Notes under the pieces: generated by a model
Database searches by the model: none
What the model was told of the DNA's origin: nothing
Seen by the model: only the letters and a program-made list of their open reading frames with translations
Source: an uncultured Flavobacteriaceae bacterium
GTDB lineage: Bacteria > Bacteroidota > Bacteroidia > Flavobacteriales > Flavobacteriaceae
NCBI GenBank assembly: GCA_947494715.1
Contig: CANLWG010000016.1
Span: 62,001-126,000 of the forward strand
Length of the DNA: 64,000 nucleotides
Reading direction: 5' to 3'
Shown: piece by piece, positions 8,289-12,122 of the stretch
Layout of the letters: every line of letters starts with the position of its first letter
Numbering within the stretch: the first letter of the stretch is position 1
Position numbers and translations under genes: made by a program

Positions 8289-9044
8289 ATGAATAAGAAA
8301 TTAGTATTGACCGCCATATCCGCATTTTGTGGGATTGCAGTCTATGGACAAGCTATAGGCGCTTCGACCAAAGGAGTTGCTGAGAACAATCTTAGAATTG
8401 CAAGTTTTATACATAACGTGAGCACTAAGTCGCCCGCTTTAATGGCAGACCGTACATTGGATTTGTCGGATATAGAAGGCTCTATGTATTATAACGAGTT
8501 TTTTAGCAAAGCAAAAATCTACTATTCGGACAAACCTTTTAAGAGCATCCTTGCACGCTATAATGCCTACACCGATGAGATAGAAATCAAAAGGGATAAC
8601 CAAGAAGTGGCTGAGGCTCTTCTTAAAGATGCCAAGGTATCCTGTGAGGTAAACGGAAATCGATTCATTTATTCCGAATACCACGACAAAAAAGGAAATT
8701 TGGAAAATGGATATCTGGTCGAACACTTTTCAGGCCAAAAATACAAACTCTACGAAAAAAAATCCAAAGCTTTTAAGGAAGGTCAACAACCCAAAACCTC
8801 CTTACATCTCCCGACTCCGGATAAATTTGTGGACAGATCGGAATACTATTTCGCCGTGGAGGGGGAAACACCTAAGTTTTTTCCGGACTCCAAGAAAAAG
8901 CTTTCAACTGTCTTTGATGCGGATAAAATCGGTGTTTTAAGAACTTTTATTAAAAAGAACGAAATCGATTTAAGCGAGAAAGAGGATTTAAAACGTCTCC
9001 TAATGTACGCCGAAACCGTTACCTTTGAAGGAAAAGGGGTTTGA
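8289..9044 (+). CDS. Secreted protein of unknown function, tandem copy 1
   Basis: I do not recognise a characterised family. The 251-aa product has a clear signal peptide (MNKKLVLTAISAFCGIAVYGQ), so it is exported. The mature part opens with a DRTLDLSDIEGSMYYNE segment and continues with RYNAYTDEIEIKRDNQE, a layout seen in uncharacterised flavobacterial proteins. The second half is Lys-rich, with PDKFVDRS and FFPDSKKKLSTVF stretches. No lipobox, C-terminal sorting domain or catalytic motif is visible. A paralogue follows 213 bases downstream and is about 80% identical over the last 200 residues by eye, so the pair is a recent tandem duplication. The cellular location after export is not clear. 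Confidence 0.75.
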   Translation: MNKKLVLTAISAFCGIAVYGQAIGASTKGVAENNLRIASFIHNVSTKSPALMADRTLDLSDIEGSMYYNEFFSKAKIYYSDKPFKSILARYNAYTDEIEIKRDNQEVAEALLKDAKVSCEVNGNRFIYSEYHDKKGNLENGYLVEHFSGQKYKLYEKKSKAFKEGQQPKTSLHLPTPDKFVDRSEYYFAVEGETPKFFPDSKKKLSTVFDADKIGVLRTFIKKNEIDLSEKEDLKRLLMYAETVTFEGKGV

Positions 9045-9257: not shown

Positions 9258-10016
9258 ATGAATAGGAAATTGATATTGACCGTCGTATTCGCCATTTTTG
9301 CATTTTCTGCACTCGGGCAAACTGGGCTACAAGCTAACCCTTCTGGGGATACAGAAAATAATTTTAGATTGGCAAATTACTTTCACAGTTTAAGCAATAA
9401 GCCAGAGGCCATTGCAGCGGACCGTACATTGGATTTGGCGGATATTGAGGGTTCCATGTATTATAACGAGGATTTTAGCCTAGGAAAGGTCTATTATTCG
9501 AACAAACCTTTTAAAAGTATCCTTGCACGCTACAATGCCTACACCGATGAGATAGAGATCAAAAGGGATAACCAAGAAGTTGCGGAATCCCTCTTTAAGG
9601 ACGCCAAAGTATCCTGTCAGGTAAATGGGCATCGTTTCATTTATTCCAAATACCGTAACAAAAAAGGAAATTTGGAAAATGGATATCTGGTTAAAACATT
9701 TTCTGGCGAAAAATACGATCTTTACGAAAAAAAAATCAAAGCTTTTAAGGAAGGGCAGCAACCCGTAACTTCGTTGCATCTCCCAACTCCGGATAAATTT
9801 GTGGACAGGTCGGCTTTTTATATTGCAACGGAGTCGAAAACACCTAAGTTTTTCCCGGACTCCAAGAAAAAGCTCTCAACTGTCTTTGGCGACGATAAAA
9901 TCGGCCTTTTAAGAACCTTTATTAAAAAAAATGAAATCGATTTGAGCAAGAAAGAGGATTTACAACGTCTACTCATGTATGCCGAAACCATCACCTCCAA
10001 GGGAAAAGGGGTGTAG
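9258..10016 (+). CDS. Secreted protein of unknown function, tandem copy 2
   Basis: Paralogue of the preceding gene, 252 aa, with its own signal peptide (MNRKLILTVVFAIFAFSALGQ). The N-terminal 50 residues differ most. The block from DRTLDLADIEGSMYYNE to the shared C-terminal GKGV is nearly the same. Substitutions are spread evenly and are often conservative, and the frame is intact, so both copies look functional. The 213-base gap between the copies is not obviously duplicated. A strong bidirectional terminator lies about 85 bases downstream. Function unknown. Confidence 0.75.
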   Translation: MNRKLILTVVFAIFAFSALGQTGLQANPSGDTENNFRLANYFHSLSNKPEAIAADRTLDLADIEGSMYYNEDFSLGKVYYSNKPFKSILARYNAYTDEIEIKRDNQEVAESLFKDAKVSCQVNGHRFIYSKYRNKKGNLENGYLVKTFSGEKYDLYEKKIKAFKEGQQPVTSLHLPTPDKFVDRSAFYIATESKTPKFFPDSKKKLSTVFGDDKIGLLRTFIKKNEIDLSKKEDLQRLLMYAETITSKGKGV

Positions 10017-10096
10017 ACGGCCCCTTGGTAAAGACAGGTTAGTTTTAAGAGATGTCAATTTGCGGAAGTATTTGAGAATAATGATATGGTGATATA

Positions 10097-10133
10097 AAAA
10101 TATAAAGGGCTTGTGAAAGCCCTTTATATTTTA
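10097..10133. terminator. Strong bidirectional terminator
   Basis: The 12-base arms TATAAAGGGCTT (10101-10112) and AAGCCCTTTATA (10117-10128) enclose a 4-base loop. A T-run follows on the plus strand and another (TTTTTATA) follows on the minus strand. It separates the converging tandem secreted-protein genes from the Cys-rich peptide gene and can serve both. A weaker hairpin with a T-run (GAGTAC/GTACTC, 10153-10177, plus strand) lies beside it. Confidence 0.8.
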
Positions 10134-10183: not shown

Positions 10184-10369
10184 CTACCATCTATCACAGA
10201 ATCCGAAACCATTACACTCTCCTGGACAATCACAGTGGTTATCACCATAGCAAAGAGTACCTTGGGGTTGCCCCACACAATTGTCCAAACACTTTCCTCC
10301 TCCAGCTATGGTCTTTTGTTCAAAACTGGTAAGGACTTTTACTCCACTTAGATCAAATAAACTTTTCAT
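10184..10369 (-). CDS. Cys-rich peptide precursor with double-glycine type leader
   Basis: The likely product is 61 aa from the ATG at 10367-10369. An upstream in-frame start at 10414 would add 15 unlike residues. Residues 1-25 read as an exported-peptide leader (MKSLFDLSGVKVLTSFEQKT, then IAGGG), matching the hydrophobic pattern and Gly-Gly cut site of bacteriocin-type leaders. The predicted core of about 36 residues has seven cysteines (C27, C31, C40, C46, C48, C52, C58), many Gly and Asp, and ends CDRW. The gene lies 151 bases downstream of, and on the same strand as, a VKOR/thioredoxin membrane oxidase, which suits a disulfide-bonded product. Whether it is a toxin, a signal or a structural peptide is unknown. 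The odd cysteine count leaves one thiol free or intermolecular. Confidence 0.68.
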   Translation of the reverse strand: MKSLFDLSGVKVLTSFEQKTIAGGGKCLDNCVGQPQGTLCYGDNHCDCPGECNGFGFCDRW

Positions 10370-10465
10370 AATAAAAATATTAGAATTATATTGGCCTTGA
10401 ACAGTTAAGGACACTCAAGGTTTATGTCCATCTTTCGCGAAAAGATATTGTTCCCTTTGCAAAAG

Positions 10466-10488
10466 CTTTTCCGCCAAAAGCGGAAAGG
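10466..10488 (-). other. Hairpin between the oxidase gene and the peptide gene
   Basis: TTTCCGC (10468-10474) pairs with GCGGAAA (10480-10486) around a CAAAA loop, with two more pairs at the base. In the minus-strand transcript it comes just after the oxidase stop and before the peptide gene, followed only by a short CTTTT. It could be a partial terminator, an attenuator or a processing site that sets different levels for the two products. Confidence 0.4.
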
Positions 10489-10520
10489 CATACGCATCGG
10501 ACAGTATTTTCGGGGCCAAA

Positions 10521-12122
10521 TCATACTGGATTTGCTTCGTTAATTTCAGTTTCTTCAACTAAATCTTCGACGAAATAGATGATATCACTTCTTTCGTATT
10601 CTTTTGGGAATTCCCTTCCGTTAATCAAAACAGCAGGAGTAAAATTAATTCCATTGTTATGACACCATTGTTGCTGTCGCTCTAATACGTATTTGAACGA
10701 AATATCATTCACTTCGCCCCATTTGGATAGCCATACATTTAAATCTGTATTATCCAAGTATACTTCGTGTAAAGCCTCAAAGACCATATTTTGAGGTTCT
10801 GTACTGTACAACTCCAATAATCTGCATGCAACTTTATGGGCCAAATTTTCCTTATCATTTGTTGAAACATTGAATCTGATTAAGACTCTAAAATTACTAT
10901 GATTTGTACGCAATAACCCCTCTACATCATGATGTGCGGACTTGCAATAAACACAGAGTGGATTAGTAACAATCAACAATTCGATTGGCGCATAAGTATT
11001 GCCTAAATTTATTTCTTTATCATGAATTTCGGGTATTTGGGTTTCTACCTTTTCGTTTTTGGATAGTAGGGCGTTGAAAAGAGCATAGTTTCGTTTGAAC
11101 TTATTATGCGCAATGGAAAGTGTTTTTAGTTCTACTTGCTTCATTAGTAAAGGCTTTGAAAAGAGCCAAAAAGAAAACGCGACTAGAAAACCAAGTAGAA
11201 GTATTGATATAGAAATACTATTAACATTTAGAGTAATGAGAGAGTCTTCAAAAAAATAAAGAGTACAAACCTGCATCCATAGAATTACTACTATCCCTAA
11301 ACATAGAGGGCACCATTTTTTGACCACAAAAATTTGGTAGAAAATGGAGTATAAGGTAATTGGCAGGGCCAATACAGTTAATAGCACAATAGGGAAATCA
11401 TCTATTTGAAAAATAAGAAGGATATTCCAGGAAAGAACGAGTCCTAAAAAATAAACCAAACTTCCATCGCTTAACTTAAACCATCCAAGTATTGTTGCTC
11501 CTTTCGAATTTAAAACTGCGTCACAACTTGTTGTTTCACTAACACTACAAACTTTATGAAGCATCCGAGTGTTGAGCCCCAATTCGTGTCTTACGGTTAA
11601 AAGACTAACCGCTAATCCAATAATGGAAAACAAAAAATGACTTGTCTGAAAGACCGTAGGGCTCTGAAAAAAGAAGAGTGCTAAAATTATGCATGCTGTA
11701 ACTAAATATACGATGCTATGTGCTCTACTGTTACTAGTTTTTTTGAGAATCTTGTCGTCTTCCTCGGTTACTACCACAACGCCACGCCAGGATTCCAGAA
11801 ATTTGTCGGCAGATAATTTATTTCTCCTCCTATCATGGGAAATAGTGCTAATCAAATCTCCTTCTTTTGTTGCTACTAAAAATTGATCCTTCTTATTAAG
11901 TGTTATAAAGGTTTTTGGCAATTGTTTTAAAATATTTCTGTCAACTGGAACTTTTAGAGCAAGGTTATCAATTCCAAAATGATTTAGGACACCGGTAACG
12001 GAATGTAAGCTCGGGTAAGATGGGTGACTCAGTAACTGAAACTCCAATTCGTCGAAGTCGGTTTTTAGTTCTTGCTTTCTCAAAAAGGTTTTAAGAATAT
12101 AAAAAAGAGAAGAATCTTGCAT
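10521..12122 (-). CDS. C39-like, VKOR and thioredoxin fusion membrane oxidase
   Basis: A 533-aa membrane protein joining three parts. Residues 1-125 resemble a C39 peptidase domain (HPSYPSLHSVTGVLNHFGI, then the SWRGVVVVT end), but the catalytic Cys is absent, so it probably binds rather than cuts. Residues 135-325 are a vitamin K epoxide reductase-like bundle with C192 and C200 as the loop pair and W270-CPLC (C271, C274) as the quinone-side pair. Residues 370-525 are a DsbA/thioredoxin domain with active site C390-V-Y-C393 and the cis-proline loop FTPAVL. Such fusions pass electrons from substrate thiols to quinone and so create disulfides. The C39-like part suggests recognition of Gly-Gly leaders, and the next gene encodes such a peptide. 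Base use is visibly more AT-rich than in flanking housekeeping genes. Confidence 0.85.
   Translation of the reverse strand: MQDSSLFYILKTFLRKQELKTDFDELEFQLLSHPSYPSLHSVTGVLNHFGIDNLALKVPVDRNILKQLPKTFITLNKKDQFLVATKEGDLISTISHDRRRNKLSADKFLESWRGVVVVTEEDDKILKKTSNSRAHSIVYLVTACIILALFFFQSPTVFQTSHFLFSIIGLAVSLLTVRHELGLNTRMLHKVCSVSETTSCDAVLNSKGATILGWFKLSDGSLVYFLGLVLSWNILLIFQIDDFPIVLLTVLALPITLYSIFYQIFVVKKWCPLCLGIVVILWMQVCTLYFFEDSLITLNVNSISISILLLGFLVAFSFWLFSKPLLMKQVELKTLSIAHNKFKRNYALFNALLSKNEKVETQIPEIHDKEINLGNTYAPIELLIVTNPLCVYCKSAHHDVEGLLRTNHSNFRVLIRFNVSTNDKENLAHKVACRLLELYSTEPQNMVFEALHEVYLDNTDLNVWLSKWGEVNDISFKYVLERQQQWCHNNGINFTPAVLINGREFPKEYERSDIIYFVEDLVEETEINEANPV

Follow-up and report, generated by a model that had tools for sequence, protein, structure and literature searches.

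A C39-like/VKOR/DsbA-like fusion protein and its Cys-rich Gly-Gly peptides in Bacteroidota: a putative leader-guided disulfide maturase predicted to face the cytoplasm

Our analysis of a 64,000-nucleotide stretch of DNA from an uncultured Flavobacteriaceae bacterium (assembly GCA_947494715.1, contig CANLWG010000016.1, positions 62,001 to 126,000; the whole stretch is called the window here and its own numbering is used) revealed a fusion protein with a C39-like N-terminus, a VKOR bundle and a DsbA-like thioredoxin domain, hereafter the oxidase, whose gene is followed by that of a short Cys-rich precursor peptide with a Gly-Gly leader. We consider it probable (about 0.6) that the oxidase is a dedicated maturase performing leader-guided, quinone-coupled disulfide formation in the cytoplasm before export. 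Like an active C39 protease, the dead C39 domain would bind the precursor by its Gly-Gly leader, yet without cutting it. The DsbA-like domain would hand disulfides to the peptide core, and the VKOR bundle would re-oxidise the DsbA-like domain and pass the electrons on to quinone. The bundle would be flipped by a single additional helix in front of VKOR, which would place both Cys pairs of VKOR in the cytoplasm together with the C39-like and DsbA-like domains. The oxidised precursor would then pass to a cleaving C39 ATP-binding cassette (ABC) exporter, which would remove the leader and which appears to be encoded next door in about 60% of the loci and elsewhere in the genome for the window locus. 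The pairing of oxidase and peptide and the general function of the oxidase appear well supported by sequence comparison, while the orientation towards the cytoplasm and the guidance by the leader are predicted, with good indirect support. From the same comparisons we infer leader binding, oxidation, the use of quinone, the cytoplasmic side, the hand-over to the exporter and a bacteriocin-like secreted product.

Pfam searches with the single protein gave matches above cut-off for VKOR (PF07884, residues 163-285, E 2.7e-14, 53.9 bits, cut-off 27.5) and Thioredoxin_4 (PF13462, residues 368-509, E 3.7e-6), and a sub-threshold match to Peptidase_C39 that begins at profile position 17 (E 1.2e-3, 19.1 bits, cut-off 22). 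When the whole genome was searched with PF03412 (cut-off 22), the C39 region of the window oxidase reached 22.5 bits, and the oxidase paralogs of the same genome reached 51.6 bits (contig C5), 49.6 bits (C19) and, below the cut-off, 20.6 bits (C6). NCBIfam gave no match to either oxidase or peptide at E up to 1. A profile built from 21 oxidases matched solved structures of VKOR-thioredoxin, DsbA-like and C39 proteins at the segments where they were expected, though weakly for C39; its matches include 1z6m and DsbA/DsbG-like chains on the thioredoxin segment and 4nv6 on the VKOR segment (E 2.8e-5). The oxidase sequence by itself, searched against solved structures, gave nothing useful. The six redox Cys (192, 200, 271, 274, 390 and 393) are invariant in all 65 aligned oxidases, and the TP motif is kept at T495 in 61 and at P496 in 64 of them. 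Against the orthologue from Ulvibacterium marinum (81% identical) the oxidase shows a nonsynonymous divergence (dN) of 0.106 and a synonymous divergence (dS) of 0.538. The initial annotation, made from the sequence alone, had described a 533-residue fusion of these three parts with Cys at these six positions, and both the make-up and the Cys positions were confirmed by Pfam, the reading frame and the alignment. It had also described the DNA as more AT-rich than its surroundings, and the oxidase gene indeed has a GC content of 34.9% compared with 41.1% for the window, which places it in the lowest 1.3% of windows of the same size; the peptide gene, at 41.4%, is not low like the oxidase gene.

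The 61-residue Gly-Gly peptide with seven Cys that had been read downstream of the oxidase on the same strand is present as described, with all Cys after ..TIAGGG. Its ATG at 10369 lies 151 nt after the oxidase stop and its stop codon is at 10184; the mechanical open reading frame (ORF) opens earlier, with a GTG at 10414. We take the peptide to be a real gene and not a chance frame because the frame is conserved in Ulvibacterium marinum (locus L114), the sole relative returned by a scan of named genomes. Gene order is the same there, the 24-residue leader differs by four synonymous and no amino-acid changes, and the core, with 25 changed codons and 16 amino-acid changes, retains all seven Cys. 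Across the family, 106 of 122 peptides have an even number of Cys in the core, as do 63 of 72 if only the nearest peptide per locus is counted (one-sided binomial p 2e-11, which assumes independent loci), and given these even numbers the peptides look like disulfide products. In the 32 loci with more than one peptide (77 pairs), mean identity is 62% between leaders and 23% between cores, a pattern of one leader with many cores. A subfamily sharing CPGxC has odd Cys numbers, seven in the window and L114 and five in L041 and L164, and the odd number seems to be conserved. A Pfam match of the window peptide to Disintegrin (E 0.02) was taken as chance.

Of 199 genomes of the family 29 encode relatives of the oxidase, as do 36 of 296 genomes of the phylum. 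The genome of the window has four oxidase loci, all of them near a Cys-rich Gly-Gly peptide. In three of these the peptide is directly downstream; in the fourth it lies on the other strand at a distance of 1.57 kb. For the wider comparison a peptide was required to have a leader ending in Gly-Gly or Ala-Gly and at least three core Cys. We counted 77 loci, fewer than all places found, with fragments and some paralogs excluded (e.g. two of the three copies in genome G059, and L039 as a shorter copy of L099). The initial annotation had proposed asking whether the oxidase repeatedly adjoins such peptides, and mostly it does: a peptide follows downstream on the same strand within 500 nt in 56 and within 1500 nt in 61 of the 77 loci, and 72 of 77 have one within 3 kb on any side. 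Within 1500 nt of the same loci, the corresponding counts were 0 for downstream on the opposite strand, 6 for upstream on the same strand and 1 for upstream on the opposite strand. Two of the five loci that fall outside the 3-kb rule (L051 and L058) carry Gly-Ala leaders. Among 22 VKOR loci taken to lack a C39-like domain, as classed by frame length and sequence, two matched a looser form of the peptide rule, both with apparent chance frames; L113 and L134 of this set hold the same VKOR, and 20 of the 22 cover 1.5 kb on each side. In plasmid records, seven of eight oxidase matches are named 'vitamin K epoxide reductase family protein', and the peptides beside the oxidase in the four plasmid records inspected are annotated as 'hypothetical protein'.

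Exporters and adaptors were named from sequence, with Pfam run on one set only (L097). A C39 ABC exporter was encoded within the fetched stretch in 38 of 64 oxidase loci, which answers the earlier question about nearby C39 transporters in the affirmative, and an HlyD-like adaptor in 37 of 64. Neither was seen at the window locus, and the earlier remark that the window holds no cleaving C39 exporter stands, the only C39 match there being the oxidase itself. On other contigs, the same genome has four C39 frames that are as long as an exporter (open frames of 734-749 aa), one of which Pfam showed to combine C39 and ABC domains. Of 18 other oxidase genomes, 17 have a strong C39 match within a frame of at least 728 aa, and the remaining one, G153, has it within a 290-aa frame. 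Peptide(s), exporter and HlyD occur together with the oxidase on plasmids pAT1 of Aureibacter tunicatorum and pEMTOL01 of Emticicia oligotrophica, and a Parabacteroides distasonis record combines peptide(s) and exporter with LanC and glycosyltransferase genes.

Some loci show further genes. On contig C10 of the genome of the window, a stretch without oxidase (L097, 6389-12859) encodes three Cys-rich Gly-Gly peptides, a UDP-glycosyltransferase-like gene, a C39 exporter and HlyD, and peptides similar to these adjoin oxidases in L050 and L052. In part of the family, genes resembling glycosyltransferases lie in the neighbourhood of oxidase and peptide. They were identified by Pfam or annotation in L006, L008 and L146, by similarity in L050, L052, L061, L081, L082 and L051, and also in L007, L056, L058 and L059, four loci that share a family of 214-aa genes, which in L007 is adjoined by a DUF6734 gene. 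Such neighbours are hints that the products may be glycosylated.

The catalytic Cys and His of C39 proteases are present in none of the 65 oxidases and in all 38 exporters from the same loci, in an alignment in which core columns are common to both. This agrees with the initial reading of a C39-like N-terminus without its catalytic Cys; the domain appears to be C39-like but not a protease and should not cut. The loss of the active site need not abolish leader binding, because in the structure of LahT, according to the part of the source available to us, leader positions -4, -7 and -12 lie in a hydrophobic groove ~20 Å from the active site (PMC6363468). The window leader has I at -4 and L at -12. 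We further compared distance matrices for 53 loci, each contributing one intact oxidase and one nearest peptide. Leader distance tracks the distance of the C39-like domain when corrected for the VKOR-thioredoxin part (partial Mantel 0.241, p 0.0005), and the relation of the leader to the VKOR-thioredoxin part corrected for the C39-like domain is weaker (0.133, p 0.013); for core and C39-like domain r was 0.207. The earlier suggestion that the C39-like part recruits the peptide and the rest oxidises it is supported by these comparisons, binding, oxidation and export themselves being steps that we infer.

For the topology of the oxidase we used the first 64 loci, which provided 65 proteins with a length of 480 aa or more. 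An extra hydrophobic segment, here called TM0, follows the C39-like domain and precedes the first transmembrane helix of VKOR (TM1); its 17-residue hydropathy peak is at least 1.4 in 64 of 65 proteins. With TM0 present, the C39-like and DsbA-like domains share one side of the membrane with the VKOR loop Cys and the CxxC, whichever side this is. The density of Lys and Arg is 0.162 per residue on the side of the active parts and 0.037 on the other, and all 65 proteins, as well as all 34 clusters formed at 40% identity, show the bias in the same direction. The fusions carry on average 0.34 Lys and Arg in the TM2/3 loop, 1.91 before the CxxC and 0.69 after TM4, compared with 3.33, 0.42 and 2.75 in the same loops of 12 VKORs of the phylum without C39-like domain. 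A score combining the three loops is positive in 64 of 65 fusions and in 2 of 12 other VKORs. Three further VKORs lacking C39 (L116, L118 and L129) agree, so that 13 of 15 others show the opposite charge pattern; some of the 15 are near copies from one genus (L123-L126), L117 was dropped and 17 loci gave no result. The extra helix, together with a Lys/Arg pattern opposite to that of 13 of 15 other VKORs, predicts an inside-out fusion that has all active parts in the cytoplasm, on the same side as the leader. In the Parabacteroides distasonis record (L145) the C39-like part is a separate ORF without TM0, located beside a VKOR-thioredoxin ORF that starts at TM1. This fits a cytoplasmic placement, though the two ORFs overlap in a shifted frame and are used with caution. 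In L008 and L081 the C39-like part and VKOR are also in different ORFs; these may be frame changes and were not used as evidence. No signal peptide was seen by eye on the C39-like domain.

The 151-nt gap between oxidase and peptide contains a putative RNA element in which a hairpin is followed by an H-type pseudoknot. When the 95 nt ahead of peptide genes were scanned for such pairing, 47 of 165 scored, versus 17 of 900 other genes and 4 of 495 shuffles, which were simple and preserved base composition only. Across 36 upstream regions that were selected solely by the position of the gene, the stem is 85% and the pseudoknot helix 88% paired and 12 of 12 of their pairs have changed on both sides; the hairpin upstream of the pseudoknot is weaker (62-65% paired). 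The covariation score of the whole structure was 0.403. Shuffles gave 0.207, with none of 500 attaining the real score, and sliding the structure gave no more than 0.195. This is the count that we trust, although related sequences can still exceed such shuffles; it supersedes a first covariation count that was biased, as its elements had been picked for their ability to pair. The case for the element rests on covariation, since folding without the pseudoknot was no better than for shuffles (z -0.86). A strict pattern found 58 copies in the fetched loci, with a leader peptide next in 48 and a Cys-rich variant in two more. With a pseudoknot-free model we found 76 copies in 23 of 149 family genomes, including five in the genome of the window, and 18 of these 23 genomes are also in the oxidase match list. 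The 33 copies inspected are those of the 76 that were obtained as loci, several of which overlap the loci used for building the model; 29 precede a leader peptide, two (L163 and L164) a close variant and two (L171 and L174) neither. Rfam 15 gave no match, DUF805b RNA (RF02914) included, between positions 10000 and 13000 of the window at E up to 5, and none at gathering score at the element in five relatives carrying it (L024, L030, L036, L042 and L070). Our guess is that the element controls translation of the peptide. Two copies in the genome of the window, both on contig C6 (81291-81354, L151, and 211530-211594, L152), precede orphan Cys-rich Gly-Gly peptides, at a distance from all four oxidase loci. 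In L049 (9142-9177) and L077 (8922-8953), the slot before the peptide is occupied by DUF805b RNA, whose layout is similar to that of the pseudoknot element found there in other loci.

Table 1. Coordinates of the oxidase, the peptide and associated features in the window.
Feature	Position	Strand	Basis
C39-like/VKOR/DsbA-like fusion oxidase, 533 aa	10521..12122	(-)	ORF, Pfam, Cys alignment
Degenerate C39 domain, residues 1-121; proposed leader-binding domain	11760..12122	(-)	sub-threshold Pfam, SHPxYPSL motif
Extra hydrophobic helix TM0, residues ~137-155, approximate boundaries	11658..11714	(-)	hydropathy, 65 aligned proteins
VKOR bundle and helix leading to thioredoxin domain, residues ~160-326	11145..11645	(-)	PF07884, invariant Cys
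DsbA-like thioredoxin domain, residues ~368-520, C390-x-x-C393, TP motif 495-496	10563..11021	(-)	PF13462, profile match
Putative RNA element: hairpin and H-type pseudoknot; last helix ends 25 nt before peptide ATG	10392..10455	(-)	
Precursor peptide, 61 aa: leader 1-24 ending GG (10298-10369), seven-Cys core 25-61 (10187-10297)	10184..10369	(-)	
Terminator-like hairpin (10100-10129) and T-rich stretch, ~54 nt past peptide stop	10085..10129	(-)	sequence, by eye

The terminator-like hairpin was not listed by the consensus scan but is also visible as a stem in a weak alignment to RsaE; the RsaE match itself (31.1 bits, cut-off 79) was taken as chance. Next to the locus, on the plus strand, lie two neighbour genes of 251 and 252 aa (8289-9044 and 9258-10016) that closely resemble each other in sequence and look like a tandem duplication.

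Several points weigh against a cytoplasmic, leader-guided maturase. The cytoplasm is normally reducing and the positive-inside rule is only a tendency, and one of the 65 fusions as well as two of the 15 other VKORs (the short L127 and L138) break the charge split. AlphaFold models were unusable, with a mean predicted local distance difference test score (pLDDT) of 39.6 for the oxidase alone and 37.5 with one relative, which leaves TM0 and the groove without structural support. The Mantel effect is modest and the test removes the shared ancestry of leader and C39-like domain only in part, and position -7 of the window leader is Gln and not hydrophobic. With seven Cys, the window peptide and its Ulvibacterium orthologue depart from the even numbers of the family; the window peptide may form a dimer, keep a free thiol or carry another modification. 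Regarding the association, the peptide rule was changed from Gly-Gly or Gly-Ala to Gly-Gly or Ala-Gly after a first look at unmatched loci, and the loci are not independent, several coming from one genome. Furthermore, L043, L066 and L074 are without a Cys-rich leader peptide within 3 kb. The Gly-Gly peptides of L043 and L074 have two and no Cys, respectively, and lie beside a cluster that appears graspetide-like from reading of its sequence, and L066 is unexplained.

The alternative that survives best is that the oxidase acts outside the cytoplasm after export and cleavage of the peptide, as other VKOR-DsbA fusions do, and that its C39-like domain is a remnant or an exporter dock. We regard this as unlikely, if still worth serious consideration. 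Characterised VKOR-DsbA fusions do work outside, and the one fusion without charge reversal would suit this explanation. The available parts of two reports point the same way, as bacteroidetocin disulfides are ascribed to an oxidoreductase in a cluster for an exported peptide (PMC6671954) and those of TMcin depend on a DsbA-family protein (PMC13252029). Against an outside location speak a Lys/Arg pattern that is reversed with respect to 13 of 15 scored VKORs of the phylum, a C39-like domain that shows no signal peptide by eye and in one case is a separate ORF free of the helix, and a leader that varies together with the C39-like domain. We consider it improbable that the enzyme instead acts on thiols as a reductase or isomerase, keeping the Cys of the precursor or reshuffling them until export. 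A thioredoxin-like domain predicted to be cytoplasmic and the odd Cys number of the window peptide would be in line with such a role, but the chemistry of known VKOR-DsbA fusions towards quinone is oxidative, and the even Cys number of 106 of 122 cores points to paired Cys in the product. Very improbable is a mere neighbour effect, with a general disulfide enzyme next to a separate peptide system: the window locus has no exporter, only 29 of 199 genomes of the family yielded an oxidase and the oxidase match list lacks 5 of the 23 genomes that have the RNA element, but the association is specific for strand and position, 4 of 4 oxidase loci in the genome of the window have such a peptide, and a patchy spread suits an accessory system rather than a general one.

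The individual parts of the proposed leader-guided maturase have counterparts in known systems. VKOR-thioredoxin fusions such as PDB 3kp9 and 4nv6 share the four-Cys VKOR bundle and the thioredoxin-like domain; they act on general substrates with an extracytoplasmic active site, and to our knowledge have neither a C39-like domain nor TM0. HlyB-type ABC transporters of type 1 secretion bind their substrate with a C39-like domain lacking the catalytic Cys, which resembles the C39 fold without protease activity described here but is fused to an ABC exporter and not to a redox enzyme. Glycocin clusters of Bacillota (e.g. sublancin) combine a Gly-Gly precursor, disulfides and a C39 exporter with thiol oxidoreductase and glycosyltransferase genes, and glycosyltransferases also occur in some oxidase loci; the glycocin oxidoreductases are, as far as we know, separate proteins without a leader-binding domain. 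An inverted VKOR from Aeropyrum pernix is reported to have its active site on the cytoplasmic side (Hibender 2017). We know of no leader-binding domain or dedicated peptide for the inverted VKORs of Aeropyrum pernix or the CyDisCo format. The latter is an engineered format in which, according to the available part of the source, an inverted VKOR has its active site in the cytoplasm (PMC5471842).

The closest known system are the bacteroidetocins (PMC6671954). They likewise occur in Bacteroidota and have a Gly-Gly leader and a C39 ABC exporter. They contain four Cys, deletion of the thiol oxidoreductase gene attenuates their activity, and disulfides were deduced by the authors, who regard Bacteroides as lacking a general disulfide machinery and the thiol oxidoreductase of the cluster as likely to make the bonds. 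Unlike here, that oxidoreductase is described as a separate gene and the part of the text available mentions no C39-like/VKOR fusion; the leaders are 15-16 aa long, compared with 24 aa here, and the four-gene set includes a five-helix protein and has other neighbours. In titles and abstracts of the open-licence literature we found no description of a C39-like/VKOR/thioredoxin fusion, which given this coverage is weak evidence. The text of a VKOR phylogeny, as far as available to us, contains no words starting with peptidase, C39 or Bacteroid (PMC4555120).

There is a fair chance that the oxidase family represents a new class of maturase. We see about even odds for the broader proposal of a new kind of maturase for ribosomally synthesized and post-translationally modified peptides (RiPPs), a cytoplasm-facing disulfide synthase that is aimed by a dead C39 domain, together with an RNA pseudoknot that marks and probably controls the set including its orphans. 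Disulfides are normally made outside the cytoplasm. If the proposal is true, substrate, thiol oxidase and quinone reductase would be united on the cytoplasmic face of the membrane and selected by the leader, which would allow disulfide-rich peptides to form in a reducing compartment. The oxidase would then be nature's equivalent of the engineered format in which an inverted VKOR serves to produce disulfide proteins in the cytoplasm (PMC5471842). It would also provide a handle on a large set of poorly annotated Cys-rich peptides, and the RNA element would offer a direct route to more of them.

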